64,000 bases of DNA. It comes from Syntrophobacterales bacterium (lineage in GTDB: Bacteria > Desulfobacterota > Syntrophobacteria > Syntrophobacterales > Thermodesulforhabdaceae). The translations under genes and the position numbers were made by a program. Positions within the stretch are counted from its first letter, which is position 1; every line of letters begins with the position of its first letter. Shown piece by piece: positions 43,163 to 49,024 of this stretch. Below the pieces are notes generated by a model. It worked only from the letters and a program-made list of their open reading frames with translations. It ran no database searches and was not told where the DNA came from. Location: NCBI GenBank assembly GCA_026417655.1, contig JAOACS010000028.1, forward strand, positions 1 through 64,000, given 5' to 3'.

Positions 43163-46123
43163 ATGGCAATTCAACAGTTTATAAAACGTCTAAAAAACCC
43201 TAGAGAAGAGAGATGGGATATTCTTCACCACGCAGTCCTTGATCCCAAAGACCCAGTCATAGCTCCCATTGAAACCGCAGTCTCCGAAGGCCTCTCGAAG
43301 TTAATACAACAAAAAGCCCTAACCGGGAGTGGAGTAAACCTTGTTAGAATGCATTCCTTTAGAGGCCTTTATACCCACCAGGCGTTGGCTCTAAAGGCCA
43401 TCCGATCAGGGAAACATGTTGTTGTCTCGACCCCCATGGCGAGTGGAAAATCTCTCATATACTACCTAGCCTTCTCTGAAGCTCTCATTGAGAACCCTAA
43501 CTCAAAGGCCCTCTTTGTATTCCCCATAAAGGCTTTAAGTAGAGATCAGCTCGATGCAGCATCCACTTTCTTCTCATCTATTTTCCCCGATGTTAAAGTA
43601 GCAGTCTATGATGGAGATACATCACCAAAGGAACGAATATCCATAAGAGACTCCTGTCCCTCTATCATCATAACTAACCCAGATATGTTGCACTGTGCCC
43701 TTCTTCCTTACCACACTAAATGGCAAAGACTGTGGGAAGATCTTTGCTTAGTGGTGCTAGACGAGATCCACACTTATCGGGGTGTGCTAGGAAGTCATGT
43801 GGCTCAAATCCTGAGAAGACTCTGGAGAGTCCAGAATTTTTACAAAAGCTCCCAGGTTAATAAAGGCGATCTAAAGTTTGTTTTACTTTCGGCAACAATA
43901 GGAAATCCTCTAGAGCTCTCATCCCAACTGACAGGTATTCCAGAGGAAGAGATGATCCTTGTAGATACCTCATCGGCGCCTTTACCACCTCGCCACTTTC
44001 TATTTTTAAAAAGCGATTTCCCCCTATCTCTTACGGCCTCATGGATTCTCGCGGAAGCCGTTTCTGAAAATCTTAAAACAATTGTCTTTACCCGATCAAG
44101 GCGGATGACCGAACTTATCTTCTTGACTATGAAACAGCGATTCCCCCATCTGGCTAAACACATAAGCTCCTATCGGGCTGGCCTCCTACCCTCAGATCGA
44201 CGTGAGATAGAACAGAGGTTTTCACAAAAGAATGGACTAAGAGGTATCATCAGCACAAGTGCAATGGAACTCGGCGTTGACATCGGGAATTTAGATGTTT
44301 GTGTGCTAGTTGGATATCCCGGAACAATTATGAGTACATGGCAAAGGGCAGGACGCGTAGGAAGAGCTGGTCAAGAATCGGCAATAGTTTTAATCCCCCA
44401 GGCCGATGCCCTAGATCAATACATTATAACCCATCCGGAACACCTTCTCTTCGGAAAAACTGAAGTGGCCGTAGCCGATGCGAAAAATCCCCATATACTA
44501 TCGGATCATCTCCTGTGTGCCGCAGCAGAATATCCAATTCAGCCAAGGGAGCTCGAAAGGAATCCCCACTGGACTGAACATCTAAGTTCCCTAAAGGCTG
44601 TAGGAAAGGTATTCTACAGTAAAGATGGGACATGGGTTGCAACCAGTTCCTATCCCCACCGTTTTGTAGATATACGTCAAACCGGAAGGGGATTTACCAT
44701 ATTTCTCAAAGATCTCGAGAAGGATAGACTTCTACCTATCGGTTTTATTGACGGAGTTAGAGCCTTCAGGGAGTGTCACCCTGGGGCTATCTATCTTCAT
44801 CTCGGGGAAACATACGAAGTTACGGAATTTGACCTTCTTCGACGTCGAATAGTCGTTTCCCCCTTTTCAGGGGAATACTTTACAATGGCAAGCTCTATAA
44901 AAGAGACAAGAATCCTTGAAGTCCTTAAATACAAAAGGATCCACAATTTCAACCTTAGACTCGGTAGACTCAGAATTAAGGAACAGATAACCGGCTATGA
45001 AAAAAAGTCCGTAAAAAGTCTTGAGATAATTGGTCAAGAGCCCCTCGATCTCCCTCCTCAACATTACGAAACCCTAGGGTTCTGGATTGAGATTGATCCT
45101 TCGATTCAAGAAATGGTTAGAAAGCTAGAGCTCCACTTTATGGGGGGAATCCACGCCTTGGAACACGCCATCATAAGTATGTTCCCCCTCCTTATTCTCT
45201 GCGACCGTGGTGATATAGGGGGTATCGCCTATCCACTCCATCCGGAAGTTGGAAGGAGCGCCATCTTCATTTACGATGGTTATGAAGGTGGGATAGGTAT
45301 TTGCGAAAAGGCCTTTGATATGATAGAACCTCTCCTCGACAAGGTAAGACAACTTCTTGAATCCTGTAGCTGCCTTAAGGGCTGCCCAAGCTGTATCCAC
45401 TCTCCAAGATGTGGTTCCGGGAATAAACCGCTAGATAAGGAAGCGGCAAAGAAGATCGCTCAAACTCTCCTCCAACCAGTTTCCCTGACCTCCATTAACC
45501 CAGTGATTTTGGTGGAAGACAAGGAGGTTACCAAGGAAAAATCCGAAGAAACTGAAACTCGTATCGCCTTTATGAATCTAGAAACCCAGTTTTTAGCCCA
45601 TGAAGTTGGAGGCTGGCATAATACCCACCTCATGAAGGTCTCTGTGGCCGTGGTCTATGACGAGTTAAAAGACGGTTTTATTATTTACCCCGAAGATGAG
45701 ATGGAAAGACTTATTAGACAGCTTACCGAATACGATCTAATTGTGGGCTTTAATATATTAGATTTTGACTATAGGGTGCTCTCCTATTACACCGATGTCG
45801 ACCTACGAAAGCACCTTCCCACGTTGGACATCCTGAAAGATGTCTACCTTAGCATTGGACGTCGAATAAGTCTTGAACACCTCGCCTCTGTGAATATAAA
45901 GGAGCAAAAAACAGCCAACGGGATTCAAGCTGTCCAATGGTTCCGGGAGGGTAGATGGGATGATCTCGTCGACTACTGTCGAAGGAATGTTATGATAACA
46001 AGAAAGCTCTTTTACAAGGGTCTTTCCGAAGGGGGACTTTACTACTGTGATAGGGACGGAAGTATAAAATTTGCTCCTCTTCATTGGTCCTTGGGAAAAT
46101 CACTCAAAAGGGGAAGCCTATGA
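43163..46123 (+). CDS. DEAD/DEAH helicase with DUF1998 zinc domain and degenerate exonuclease-like domain
   Basis: The 986-residue protein has superfamily-2 helicase motifs (MASGKSLIYY, VVLDEIHTYRG, LSATIGNP, QRAGRVGRAG). A four-cysteine DUF1998/MZB-type site follows (CSCLKGCPSCIHSPRC, about 735-750). The C-terminal RNase H-fold part (about 800-970) keeps Asp869 in motif II (GFNILDFD). Motif I has Asn805 (MNLETQ instead of D-x-E) and motif III has Asn942 (YCRRNV instead of x-D-V). Helicase function in DNA repair is likely, but the nuclease is probably inactive. Its stop overlaps the oxidoreductase start (ATGA). Confidence 0.88.
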   Translation: MAIQQFIKRLKNPREERWDILHHAVLDPKDPVIAPIETAVSEGLSKLIQQKALTGSGVNLVRMHSFRGLYTHQALALKAIRSGKHVVVSTPMASGKSLIYYLAFSEALIENPNSKALFVFPIKALSRDQLDAASTFFSSIFPDVKVAVYDGDTSPKERISIRDSCPSIIITNPDMLHCALLPYHTKWQRLWEDLCLVVLDEIHTYRGVLGSHVAQILRRLWRVQNFYKSSQVNKGDLKFVLLSATIGNPLELSSQLTGIPEEEMILVDTSSAPLPPRHFLFLKSDFPLSLTASWILAEAVSENLKTIVFTRSRRMTELIFLTMKQRFPHLAKHISSYRAGLLPSDRREIEQRFSQKNGLRGIISTSAMELGVDIGNLDVCVLVGYPGTIMSTWQRAGRVGRAGQESAIVLIPQADALDQYIITHPEHLLFGKTEVAVADAKNPHILSDHLLCAAAEYPIQPRELERNPHWTEHLSSLKAVGKVFYSKDGTWVATSSYPHRFVDIRQTGRGFTIFLKDLEKDRLLPIGFIDGVRAFRECHPGAIYLHLGETYEVTEFDLLRRRIVVSPFSGEYFTMASSIKETRILEVLKYKRIHNFNLRLGRLRIKEQITGYEKKSVKSLEIIGQEPLDLPPQHYETLGFWIEIDPSIQEMVRKLELHFMGGIHALEHAIISMFPLLILCDRGDIGGIAYPLHPEVGRSAIFIYDGYEGGIGICEKAFDMIEPLLDKVRQLLESCSCLKGCPSCIHSPRCGSGNKPLDKEAAKKIAQTLLQPVSLTSINPVILVEDKEVTKEKSEETETRIAFMNLETQFLAHEVGGWHNTHLMKVSVAVVYDELKDGFIIYPEDEMERLIRQLTEYDLIVGFNILDFDYRVLSYYTDVDLRKHLPTLDILKDVYLSIGRRISLEHLASVNIKEQKTANGIQAVQWFREGRWDDLVDYCRRNVMITRKLFYKGLSEGGLYYCDRDGSIKFAPLHWSLGKSLKRGSL

Positions 46124-48222
46124 GAGAAGAACAAAATTTTGAAGAGATACGCACCCACTGCAGCCGTATGGATCACGGAGGATGTGGACTAATAGTAAGG
46201 TTGAAAAAGGGGGAGATTGTAGGCATTAGAGGAAACCCGGAGGCACCTCTTAGTAGGGGCTACATCTGCCCCAAGGGGATCGCATCCATAGAAAAACTTC
46301 AACATCCTAAGCGATTGCGGTTTCCCATGAGGAGAATCGATAAACGAGGTGCAAATCGGTGGAAACAAATAAGCTGGGAAGAGGCATTAAAAATCATCTC
46401 CGACAAATTTCTCGAGATAAAGGATCGCTATGGAGCAAGATCGGTTTGTTTCTGCCAGGGTATGCCCAAGGGACTTGAACATTTTGTCTTGATACGGCTT
46501 GCTAATCTCTTTGGTTCACCAAATGTTGTAGCTGTCCAGGACGTATGCCATGCGCCCCGGGAAATTACAGGTCTTCACCTATGCGGTTTTTACCCCGTTG
46601 TGGATTTTCGCCATAAAAGCCGCCTGATAGTTCTTTGGGGAAGCAATCCGATGGCGACAAACGAAGAAGGGGCTACAGGAAAGCTTTTGCTCGAGCAACT
46701 TAGAGAGGGCACCCCCCTTGTGACCGTAGATCCTCGAAAGACAGATATGTCCAAGCGTTCTAAAATCCATCTTCAACTCCGCCCAGGCTCGGACACAGCT
46801 CTAGCTTTAGGTATTTACCGTGTCATTGTCGAGGAAAAACTCTATGACGAAGATTTTGTAAAACAATGGGTAAAGGGCTTTGAAGCGTTTTCAGATCATG
46901 TCAAATCCTATTCTTTAGAGGAGATCTCCAGTATTACTTGGGTTCCTTCAGAGCAAATTATCGAAACAGCGAGGCTCTACGCTACATCTAAACCTGCAGC
47001 GATCCACTGGGGAAATGCTATAGAACAGAACCGTAACAATTTCGATACCGTAAGAAGCCTTATTGCTCTGATGGCCATATGTGGCAACCTGGATATTCCT
47101 GGAGGAAATATTCAACCCCTTGATCCTCCCATAACGCCACTTGGAAAATTTGTCAGAGCATCAAAGATCCCAGAAAAACCAAAAGAGATGATCCATGCTC
47201 ACTTCGGCACTATCCCGAAACTCATGACAGTTCCACCTGCCTTCTTCCGAAGAGCCGTGCTCGAAGGTAAGCCCTATGAAGTGCGAGCCGTCTATATGCA
47301 ATGCACAAATCCACTCATAACCTGGGCAGATAGCGAATTAACCGAGAAGACCTTAAAATCCCTTGATTTCCTCGTGGTGTCCGACGTCTTTTTAACGCCC
47401 ACGGCTCTCTACGCCGATATAGTCCTTCCTGCTGCAACCCAGTTTGAATTTAACGACATCGGCCATTACGGCCTTGGACACGGTTACATACTGGCTCGCC
47501 CCAAAGTAGTGGATCCACCTCTAGAATGTTGGCCGGACATGAAGATCCTAAACGAACTTGGAAAACTTATAACCGATCCATCGGAATGGTATGACAACTA
47601 CGAAGAACTTCTAGAAGAAGTTCTCAAGCCAACTGGGCTCACCTATCGAGAGTTTGCCGAAAGGGGATACCTTGCAGGGGAGGATAAATTTCTTAAGTAC
47701 CGAAACGATGGTTTCAAAACTCCAAGCGGAAAAGTTGAACTCGTAATGCCTCAGGCCTCTAAATGGGGAGCTAAGCCTCTTCCAGATGCTAGAGATCTTC
47801 CTGATACACTCGATGCCTCATTCCCCCTTCTATTGACAAGTGCAAAGGATAAATTCTACCTCCATTCATCCTACCGATGGATTTCGGGGCTTCGGAAATT
47901 AAGTGACCGCCCCTATGTAAAAATCAACCCCGAAACCGCAAGTCGCTACGGGATACAGGATGGTGATGAAGTTATTGTGGAAACCCGAAATGGGAAAAGG
48001 ATTATTCAGACTGCGGAGCTTACCGACTCGGTTCATCCCCTAGTCGTCGTGGCATCTTACGGATGGTGGTTTCCTGAGCTCGAAGCCGAAAGAGAATATG
48101 GATGGAAGATCGCGAACTACAACATGCTCACTTCCGCTCTAGAGCCGGGACAAACCTTTGGAACGTGCAATATGAGGGGTATTGCCTGTAGAATAGCCCC
48201 TCTTAAAAAACATGGGGTATAA
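46120..48222 (+). CDS. Molybdopterin oxidoreductase (DMSO-reductase family) with Asp in the Fe-S site
   Basis: I start at 46120 (700 aa; AGGGGAAG upstream; ATGA overlap with the helicase). It has the bis-MGD domains and a C-terminal molydopterin-binding domain (YGIQDGDEVIVETRNGKR). The Fe-S site reads C14-x3-D18-x3-C22 with Cys50 (ICPKG), so the second cysteine ligand is Asp. Cys in DVCHAPREITG is the likely Mo ligand. There is no Tat signal and no adjacent Fe-S or cytochrome subunit, so it is probably a cytoplasmic single-subunit enzyme. Substrate unknown; the motif recalls the formate dehydrogenase / acetylene hydratase side of the family. Confidence 0.9.
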   Translation: MREEQNFEEIRTHCSRMDHGGCGLIVRLKKGEIVGIRGNPEAPLSRGYICPKGIASIEKLQHPKRLRFPMRRIDKRGANRWKQISWEEALKIISDKFLEIKDRYGARSVCFCQGMPKGLEHFVLIRLANLFGSPNVVAVQDVCHAPREITGLHLCGFYPVVDFRHKSRLIVLWGSNPMATNEEGATGKLLLEQLREGTPLVTVDPRKTDMSKRSKIHLQLRPGSDTALALGIYRVIVEEKLYDEDFVKQWVKGFEAFSDHVKSYSLEEISSITWVPSEQIIETARLYATSKPAAIHWGNAIEQNRNNFDTVRSLIALMAICGNLDIPGGNIQPLDPPITPLGKFVRASKIPEKPKEMIHAHFGTIPKLMTVPPAFFRRAVLEGKPYEVRAVYMQCTNPLITWADSELTEKTLKSLDFLVVSDVFLTPTALYADIVLPAATQFEFNDIGHYGLGHGYILARPKVVDPPLECWPDMKILNELGKLITDPSEWYDNYEELLEEVLKPTGLTYREFAERGYLAGEDKFLKYRNDGFKTPSGKVELVMPQASKWGAKPLPDARDLPDTLDASFPLLLTSAKDKFYLHSSYRWISGLRKLSDRPYVKINPETASRYGIQDGDEVIVETRNGKRIIQTAELTDSVHPLVVVASYGWWFPELEAEREYGWKIANYNMLTSALEPGQTFGTCNMRGIACRIAPLKKHGV

Positions 48223-48229
48223 TCCCTCT

Positions 48230-49024
48230 ATGGGTAAGATATTTAAGATTATCTCAGGGTTCGTATTGGCATGGGCAGGGTGTATTCCCTGCTATGGGGA
48301 TGGTGTTTATCTAGAGGATAGGGGAGGTCGGCTTAAGGGGTTTGTAACAAAGGTCGCAAAGGATTATAACAATTTTTACTCAAAAGATAGGTTGGTTAGG
48401 ACTGGCATAGTTTTTAGTCTGGGAGCCCTTATGGCCAATACACCCTGCGATGAAGAAATCCAGAGCCTTTACCAAACCAAGATAAGAAGTTCTATGACAG
48501 ATGCCTTTTCGAAAAAGGCGAGACTCCTTGGAGAGTGGAAATATCTTATGCCTAGCTCTGCCCTCCTAGCAAGTCTGTCTCTATTTGATGATAGGAGTTA
48601 TTTAGGCAACCTGGGCGCTAAAACATTGAGATCCTATCTAGTCGGGGGCCTTCCAGTCTTTGTCATGCAGCGTGTCACCGGAGCAAGTAGGCCCGGCCAA
48701 GATAAGCATGGATCTTCGTGGGATCTTTTTGGGGACTCTAACGGTGTTAGTGGACACGCCTTCTTTGGGGCTGTTCCCTTTCTTGTATTGGCTAAGACTC
48801 AGGAGGCTTCCCTCGCAAAGTATGCCTTCTACGGAGGATCCTTGGCAGCAGCCTTTTCAAGGTTAAATGATAGCTATCATTATTTTTCCCAAATACTTCT
48901 TGGTTGGTATTTAGCCTACGAAGCGACCGATGCGGTCTTTGAGACAAAAGGAGTCAATAGAACGCTTATCTTCCCTGTGATTGGCCTTAATAAATACGGC
49001 CTCTACTTTGTCACCCATTGGTAG
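48230..49024 (+). CDS. PAP2-superfamily phosphatase-like exported protein
   Basis: I start at 48230 (264 aa), which gives a clean signal peptide (FKIISGFVLAWAGCIPCYG) and avoids overlap with the oxidoreductase. PAP2-like motifs are at ASRPGQD, SGHAF and SRLNDSYHYFSQ. Two motif residues differ from the classical set: the motif 1 Lys is Gln, and the Asp of S-R-x5-H-x3-D is Gln. It may be a periplasmic or outer-membrane lipid phosphatase of a variant class, or inactive. Confidence 0.72.
   Translation: MGKIFKIISGFVLAWAGCIPCYGDGVYLEDRGGRLKGFVTKVAKDYNNFYSKDRLVRTGIVFSLGALMANTPCDEEIQSLYQTKIRSSMTDAFSKKARLLGEWKYLMPSSALLASLSLFDDRSYLGNLGAKTLRSYLVGGLPVFVMQRVTGASRPGQDKHGSSWDLFGDSNGVSGHAFFGAVPFLVLAKTQEASLAKYAFYGGSLAAAFSRLNDSYHYFSQILLGWYLAYEATDAVFETKGVNRTLIFPVIGLNKYGLYFVTHW

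Follow-up and report, generated by a model that had tools for sequence, protein, structure and literature searches.

A gene on contig JAOACS010000028.1 of a Syntrophobacterales bacterium encodes a molybdoenzyme whose cluster loop holds an aspartate, Asp18, where relatives hold a cysteine. The question is whether this Asp ligates the FS0 cluster, and in what kind of enzyme. Coordinates are those of the window, the whole 64,000-nucleotide stretch of DNA that was analysed, and every feature of the gene lies on the + strand.

A molybdoenzyme gene with Asp in its cluster loop

The reading frame runs from an ATG at 46120 to a stop ending at 48222 (46120..48222); at its start it shares 4 nt with the end of the upstream ORF. 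The frame, Pfam matches and fold match mark the 700-residue product as a Mo/W-bisPGD protein that is acetylene-hydratase-like and belongs to a clade with a putative Asp ligand at FS0. Three Pfam domains, Molybdop_Fe4S4, Molybdopterin and Molydop_binding, score above their gathering cut-offs, giving the domain set of the DMSO reductase (MopB) superfamily, and the predicted model has the fold of that superfamily. Among the best 25 of 27 NCBIfam matches, no family scores over its own cut-off. The top match, Fdh-alpha, reaches 323.5 bits against a curated cut-off of 666.25, a score too low for assignment to formate dehydrogenase alpha.

The cluster region reads IRTHC14-SRM-D18-HGG-C22...YIC50PK, for a full motif of C14-x3-D18-x3-C22-x27-C50. 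The cluster loop, C14-S-R-M-D18-H-G-G-C22 (C-x3-D-x3-C), occupies 46159..46185 and is common to 52 clade members. Within it lie the codons for C14 (46159-46161), Met17 (46168..46170), Asp18 (GAT, 46171..46173) and C22 (46183-46185). The codon for C50, the fourth ligand, lies at 46267-46269 and, together with the codon for Lys52, within 46267..46275. Lys52 is presumably the conserved lysine between cluster and pterin in this enzyme family.

Distribution of the Asp motif

Protein searches for relatives covered 40 related genomes, 55 genomes of the class and 297 genomes of the phylum; a DNA pattern was run on 395 phylum genomes, and named genomes supplied further relatives. These sets overlap. 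Dropping partial genes, duplicate genes and matches that start past the motif (L033, L046, L001, L002 and L015 are among the rows left out) gave 98 full-length relatives. Two rows outside the 98, the N-terminal piece of L046 and the partial L009, both read C-x-R-M-D-H-G-G-C.

The motif C-x3-D-H-G-G-C is carried by every one of the 52 relatives with at least 44.1% identity to the 700-residue protein and is missing from all 46 at or below 42.1%. Because the motif itself defined the two groups, counting Asp inside the Asp group would be circular. What does not depend on that labelling is that identity and the tree divide the 98 relatives as the motif does. The motif C-x2/3-C-x3-C is present in 45 of the 46 Cys-type relatives, placing Cys at ligand 2, and the other one, L156, also has Cys there. 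Cys homologues thus exist, at 42% identity and below. L156 (G173:C13:20514-22661) lacks the first cluster Cys and reads WSAGPGCHGGC, another apparent ligand change in the family. A second Cys-type relative, L158 (G559:C10:46915-48954), has a 2Fe-2S-like N-terminal stretch, EGCSVGECGSC (by eye), ahead of its motif in the same open frame.

Of the 52 Asp-type sequences, 33 came from motif-blind protein searches and 19 from regions around DNA-pattern hits, and the lowest pairwise identity among them is 42%. The phylum-wide protein search yielded 49 places at 45% identity or more: 45 are also on the DNA-pattern list, and the remaining four read CSYMDHGGC (3) or CGRQDHGGC (1). The DNA pattern C-x-R-[hydrophobic]-D-H-G-G-C occurs at 58 places in 56 of 395 phylum genomes, with 0 for the reversed control in the table; loci were assigned to 30 of these places, each of which encodes a relative of at least 46% identity. 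The Asp-motif clade is common in the source phylum, and the named close relatives L007 and L009 are from Desulfobacterales, which makes Desulfobacterota the probable phylum.

In the sampled genomes of three other phyla, which are samples and not a census, the Asp clade was not found. In the phylum of G435, a looser pattern hit 4 of 299 genomes and its reversed control 2; no molybdoenzyme frame contains any of the 4 hits, and at one of these loci, L162, a molybdoenzyme gene with a Cys-type motif follows downstream of the hit, beyond stops. Of 3 genomes sampled from the phylum of G434, 0 matched. Among 151 genomes in the phylum of G433, 1 has a relative at E <= 1e-125, and that one is Cys-type.

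The source genome itself encodes five other Mo-bisPGD proteins. Motifs were read for four of them (L001, L003, L005, from its open frame, and L006; L002 is not among them), and all four have Cys at ligand 2. Both L001 (G000:C11:56872-58146) and L002 (G000:C25:15052-16320) contain one in-frame TGA directly before HSSTVAGL, an arrangement that resembles selenocysteine formate dehydrogenases.

The 52 Asp-type sequences form one clade in FastTree with SH-like support of 0.999 on all columns, and remain monophyletic at 0.999 when residues 10-24 and gappy columns are removed. An IQ-TREE run that ended before support values also groups them together, so that branch support figures are from FastTree alone. 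Given this monophyly, the change from C-x2-C to C-x3-D looks like a single event on the clade stem.

In the MAFFT alignment, column 18 is D in 52/52 clade members versus C in 27/27 nearer Cys relatives. The Asp is encoded by GAT in 28 of the clade members and by GAC in 24. The residues C14, C22, C50 and K52 are invariant in all 52, C50 and K52 also in all 27 sisters, and 27 residues separate C22 from the fourth Cys throughout the clade. Position 17 is M in 38, F in 12, L in 1 and Q in 1, and position 13 is H in 46, Y in 5 and F in 1. All 52 have His19, but among the 27 nearer Cys relatives 19 have it too, as C-H-G-G-C (16/27) or C-H-G-V-C (3/27). Because His19 coexists there with a ligand-2 Cys, it is not the replacement ligand, and the counts at both positions speak against His13 or His19 as a substitute.

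A sequence-only reading of this DNA had described C14-x3-D18-x3-C22...C50 and had taken Cys to be the family norm at position 18 and Asp the mark of a subfamily, for which it called for a phylogeny. The motif is read as claimed, with its codons located; Cys is the norm at ligand 2 in the other relatives; and in the phylogeny Asp is a fixed trait of one clade.

Fold and metal site

The AlphaFold2 model, built with 40 Asp-type sequences, has a mean pLDDT of 91.7 overall and 71 over residues 11-20. Its closest solved fold is acetylene hydratase of Syntrophotalea (Pelobacter) acetylenica (PDB 2E7Z; Z 43.6, 680 residues, 2.1 A, 27% identity), which is also the best sequence match; polysulfide reductase follows at Z 37.7. 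Acetylene hydratase carries Cys141 on its metal, and the aligned, conserved residue here is Cys143, the predicted Mo/W ligand. Acetylene hydratase is monomeric, as is predicted for the 700-residue protein. The likeness does not extend to FS0, held in acetylene hydratase by Cys9/12/16/46 with C-x2-C spacing, whereas the clade's C-x3-D-x3-C lacks the four-Cys set. The identity is 27% over 680 aligned residues, and nothing points to acetylene as the substrate. By its cluster ligands, the protein is not an acetylene hydratase.

The pair Cys143-His144 (46546..46551) aligns with the Sec-His (U-H) pair at the metal of FdhH, giving a Cys/Sec-His pair. FdhH differs in its all-Cys FS0 (C-P-Y-C-A-S-G-C, versus C-x3-D-x3-C here), and the stretch that holds its catalytic Arg333 has no conserved counterpart in the 700-residue protein. 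The residue C143 is conserved in the Asp and Cys groups and H144 in the Asp clade only. Five residues, His144, E148, S175, E182 and E183, show at least 97% conservation within the clade and occur in none of the 29 sister proteins used for comparison; 76% of those sisters have Tyr at position 144. These clade-specific residues suggest that the cluster change was accompanied by an altered metal pocket.

Gene neighbourhood and location

Forty-five neighbourhoods were parsed to mechanical ORFs, and the focal gene was located in 42 of them (37 Asp-type; missed in L111, L112 and L113). Any one gene family holds a constant position beside the gene in at most 4 of these 42 loci, and an operon-based assignment of function was rejected on this count. 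Two broad families, signalling-protein-like and ABC ATPase-like by eye, recur in 9 and 7 loci at scattered places. A small His-rich gene (115-161 aa as parsed) lies directly upstream of a Phe-type Asp gene in L098, L102, L103 and L104, and the one of these four proteins examined has no Pfam match.

At 43163-49024, genes for an MrfA-type helicase, the molybdoenzyme and a PAP2 phosphatase overlap by a few bases, suggesting that they may be co-transcribed. Of the helicase and PAP2 neighbours only the helicase recurs, with one congener (L078).

In the whole stop-to-stop frames, a median of 22 residues precedes the first Cys (30 or fewer in 31/52; more than 30 in 21/52; more than 60 in 7/52). The 21 longer frames may include an N-terminal extension in individual clade members. 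No credible twin-arginine motif was seen in the N-terminal frames of the 52. Short N-termini of this kind, taken with the lack of conserved neighbours, fit a single-subunit enzyme that is probably cytoplasmic. The product looks like a stand-alone enzyme whose substrate is not assignable from sequence or context, in agreement with the sequence-only reading, which had proposed a single-subunit enzyme of this description.

Is Asp18 a cluster ligand?

The assignment of Asp18 depends on the end of the loop from which it is counted: from C22 it meets Cys12 of acetylene hydratase, and from C14 it meets Asp13. The alignments disagree as well. MAFFT puts Asp18 over the ligand-2 Cys, whereas HMMER alignments to FdhH and HDCR FdhF place the gap after Asp and Met17 over the Cys. 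Ligands 2 and 3 are x3 apart in 45 of the 46 Cys-type relatives, in acetylene hydratase (Cys12/16) and in nitrite oxidoreductase (NXR). With this spacing kept, the residue four before C22 would be at the ligand-2 position, and Asp18 most likely stands there.

A structure with an Asp at this position exists for Kuenenia NXR, reportedly from Chicano et al. 2021; PDB 7b04, which we take to be the structure of that paper, is annotated as nitrite oxidoreductase subunit A. According to the available sections of the structure paper, FS0 of NXR-A is ligated by C67, D71, C75 and C115, with Asp on iron (PMC8387239). By the ligands named there, the C-x3-D-x3-C spacing is identical to that of the 700-residue protein. 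The same sections place Asn70, the residue preceding Asp71, opposite Mo (PMC8387239), and Met17 (or Phe17) may by analogy face the metal in the Asp clade. NXR itself was rejected as an identity on several grounds: a Cys, not an Asp, on the metal (Cys143 here, where the available sections give Asp275 on Mo; PMC8387239); no conserved partner gene (NXR has partner subunits B and C in the same sections, whereas this gene has no conserved neighbour and is adjoined by helicase and PAP2); and a far weaker profile match, 9e-27 for 7b04 versus 1e-124 for 2e7z.

As an example of Asp ligation, the sequence-only reading had named Pyrococcus ferredoxin, whose fold is unrelated to that of the molybdoenzyme; the cluster of altered potential, or [3Fe-4S] cluster, that it proposed stays a hypothesis. 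This is a weaker analogy than NXR: a precedent for Asp ligation does exist, but Kuenenia NXR-A, of the same superfamily and with the same spacing in the sections available, is the closer one (PMC8387239). For the ferredoxin, an excerpt of PMC4070099 describes a natural Asp ligand on a [4Fe-4S] cluster; it adds that in PsaC a stable [4Fe-4S] cluster had a lower potential after one Cys-to-Asp change, while other substitutions led to [3Fe-4S]. Within the superfamily, the excerpted NXR paper gives FS0 of NAR and EbDH as 3Cys/1His, with His at the Cys67 position, and states that such ligation affects potential (PMC8387239). NarG and ethylbenzene dehydrogenase likewise have one non-Cys FS0 ligand, but it is His, at ligand 1 and not ligand 2. 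They are also multi-subunit and, as given in part of PMC10100899, have Asp on Mo, where the 700-residue protein has Cys143.

Taken as a whole, the best explanation, which we consider probable, is that Asp18 ligates a [4Fe-4S] FS0 as part of one loop remodelling in a stand-alone Mo/W-bisPGD enzyme. FS0 would be held by C14, C22, C50 and Asp18, with ligands 1 and 2 one residue further apart; Asp ligation would tune the cluster; and the additional residue would put position 17, mostly Met or Phe, close to the metal. The Asp ligand and the extra residue would then be two aspects of a single change to the loop that lies between cluster and active site. In this proposal we infer the Asp-Fe bond and the type and potential of the cluster, as we do the location and substrate of the enzyme. 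The x3 spacing, the HGG common to 16/27 Cys relatives and the NXR structure favour ligation by Asp18. In the tree, the Cys sister group closest to the clade is without HGG, which weakens the HGG argument, and the model confidence of the loop, a mean of 71, stands against ligation.

A carboxylate in this loop can also have a non-ligand role. In acetylene hydratase, catalytic Asp13 comes directly after ligand Cys12 and forms a hydrogen bond to the water on tungsten, according to the part of PMC12096430 available; the residue directly after ligand 2 here is His19 (MAFFT) or Asp18 (HMMER). One possibility would be that Asp18 is the counterpart of Asp13, a second-shell acid/base over a metal-bound water, with Met17 in the ligand position and three Cys holding a [3Fe-4S] or an open-site [4Fe-4S] cluster. 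Counting from the first Cys, which brings M17 to Cys12, the HMMER gap after Asp in the FdhH alignment and the closeness of the acetylene hydratase fold are consistent with this role. It would, however, break the x3 spacing kept by the Cys-type relatives, and it has against it the HGG of C-H-G-G-C relatives and NXR, where, in the sections available, an Asp at identical spacing sits on iron; we regard it as unlikely.

Alternatively, Asp18 may stand at the ligand position but remain unbound; the native cluster would then be [3Fe-4S], or a labile one that switches between [3Fe-4S] and [4Fe-4S]. A parallel would be arsenite oxidase, in which one ligand of a [3Fe-4S] cluster is replaced. In the excerpt of PMC4070099, iron in the Asp-ligated cluster of Pyrococcus ferredoxin is labile and PsaC substitution can yield [3Fe-4S]. 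Against this, the natural Asp-ligated FS0 of NXR is described as [4Fe-4S] in the available sections of PMC8387239, and the strict conservation of Asp, with no Ser, Gly or Ala in its place, points to a role in binding, making an unbound Asp quite improbable. That the cluster is missing, or survives solely as a structural relic, draws on the DorA/TorA branch, which functions independently of FS0 in the part of PMC12636705 available, but is very improbable with C14, C22, C50 and K52 invariant in 52/52. Ligation by Asp18 is the reading that we retain, and most probably the Asp-clade enzyme combines a fold like that of acetylene hydratase with a cluster site like that of NXR.

Implications

Asp-ligated FS0 as a kind is already known: the available sections of PMC8387239 report it for NXRs and, by sequence, some nitrate reductases, and their authors argue for cluster tuning. 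In the open-licence literature, we found no description of the Asp clade, its setting or the function of its sister clades, and no match to the C-x3-D motif. Part of PMC10100899 mentions Cys-coordinating lineages that seem to be novel and have AH-like best hits, and the available portions of PMC13101534 and PMC10609526 contain nothing on Asp ligands.

The tree was built without NXR; the Asp-ligated FS0 proposed here would be a second, apparently independent case, and convergence with NXR is the simplest reading. A more speculative extension, to which we give little credence, is that in this second origin labile Asp-bound iron would act in the chemistry, binding water or substrate beside the metal, and not in electron transfer alone, which would make a new bisPGD class.

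With its place on another branch, another metal ligand and no conserved partner gene, the clade would offer an independent case in which to ask whether Asp serves redox tuning or cluster chemistry. It also defines a clade of uncharacterised bacterial enzymes, with predicted Mo or W at the metal site, that is common in the phylum and easily recognised by its loop motif, C-x-R-[M/F]-D-H-G-G-C.
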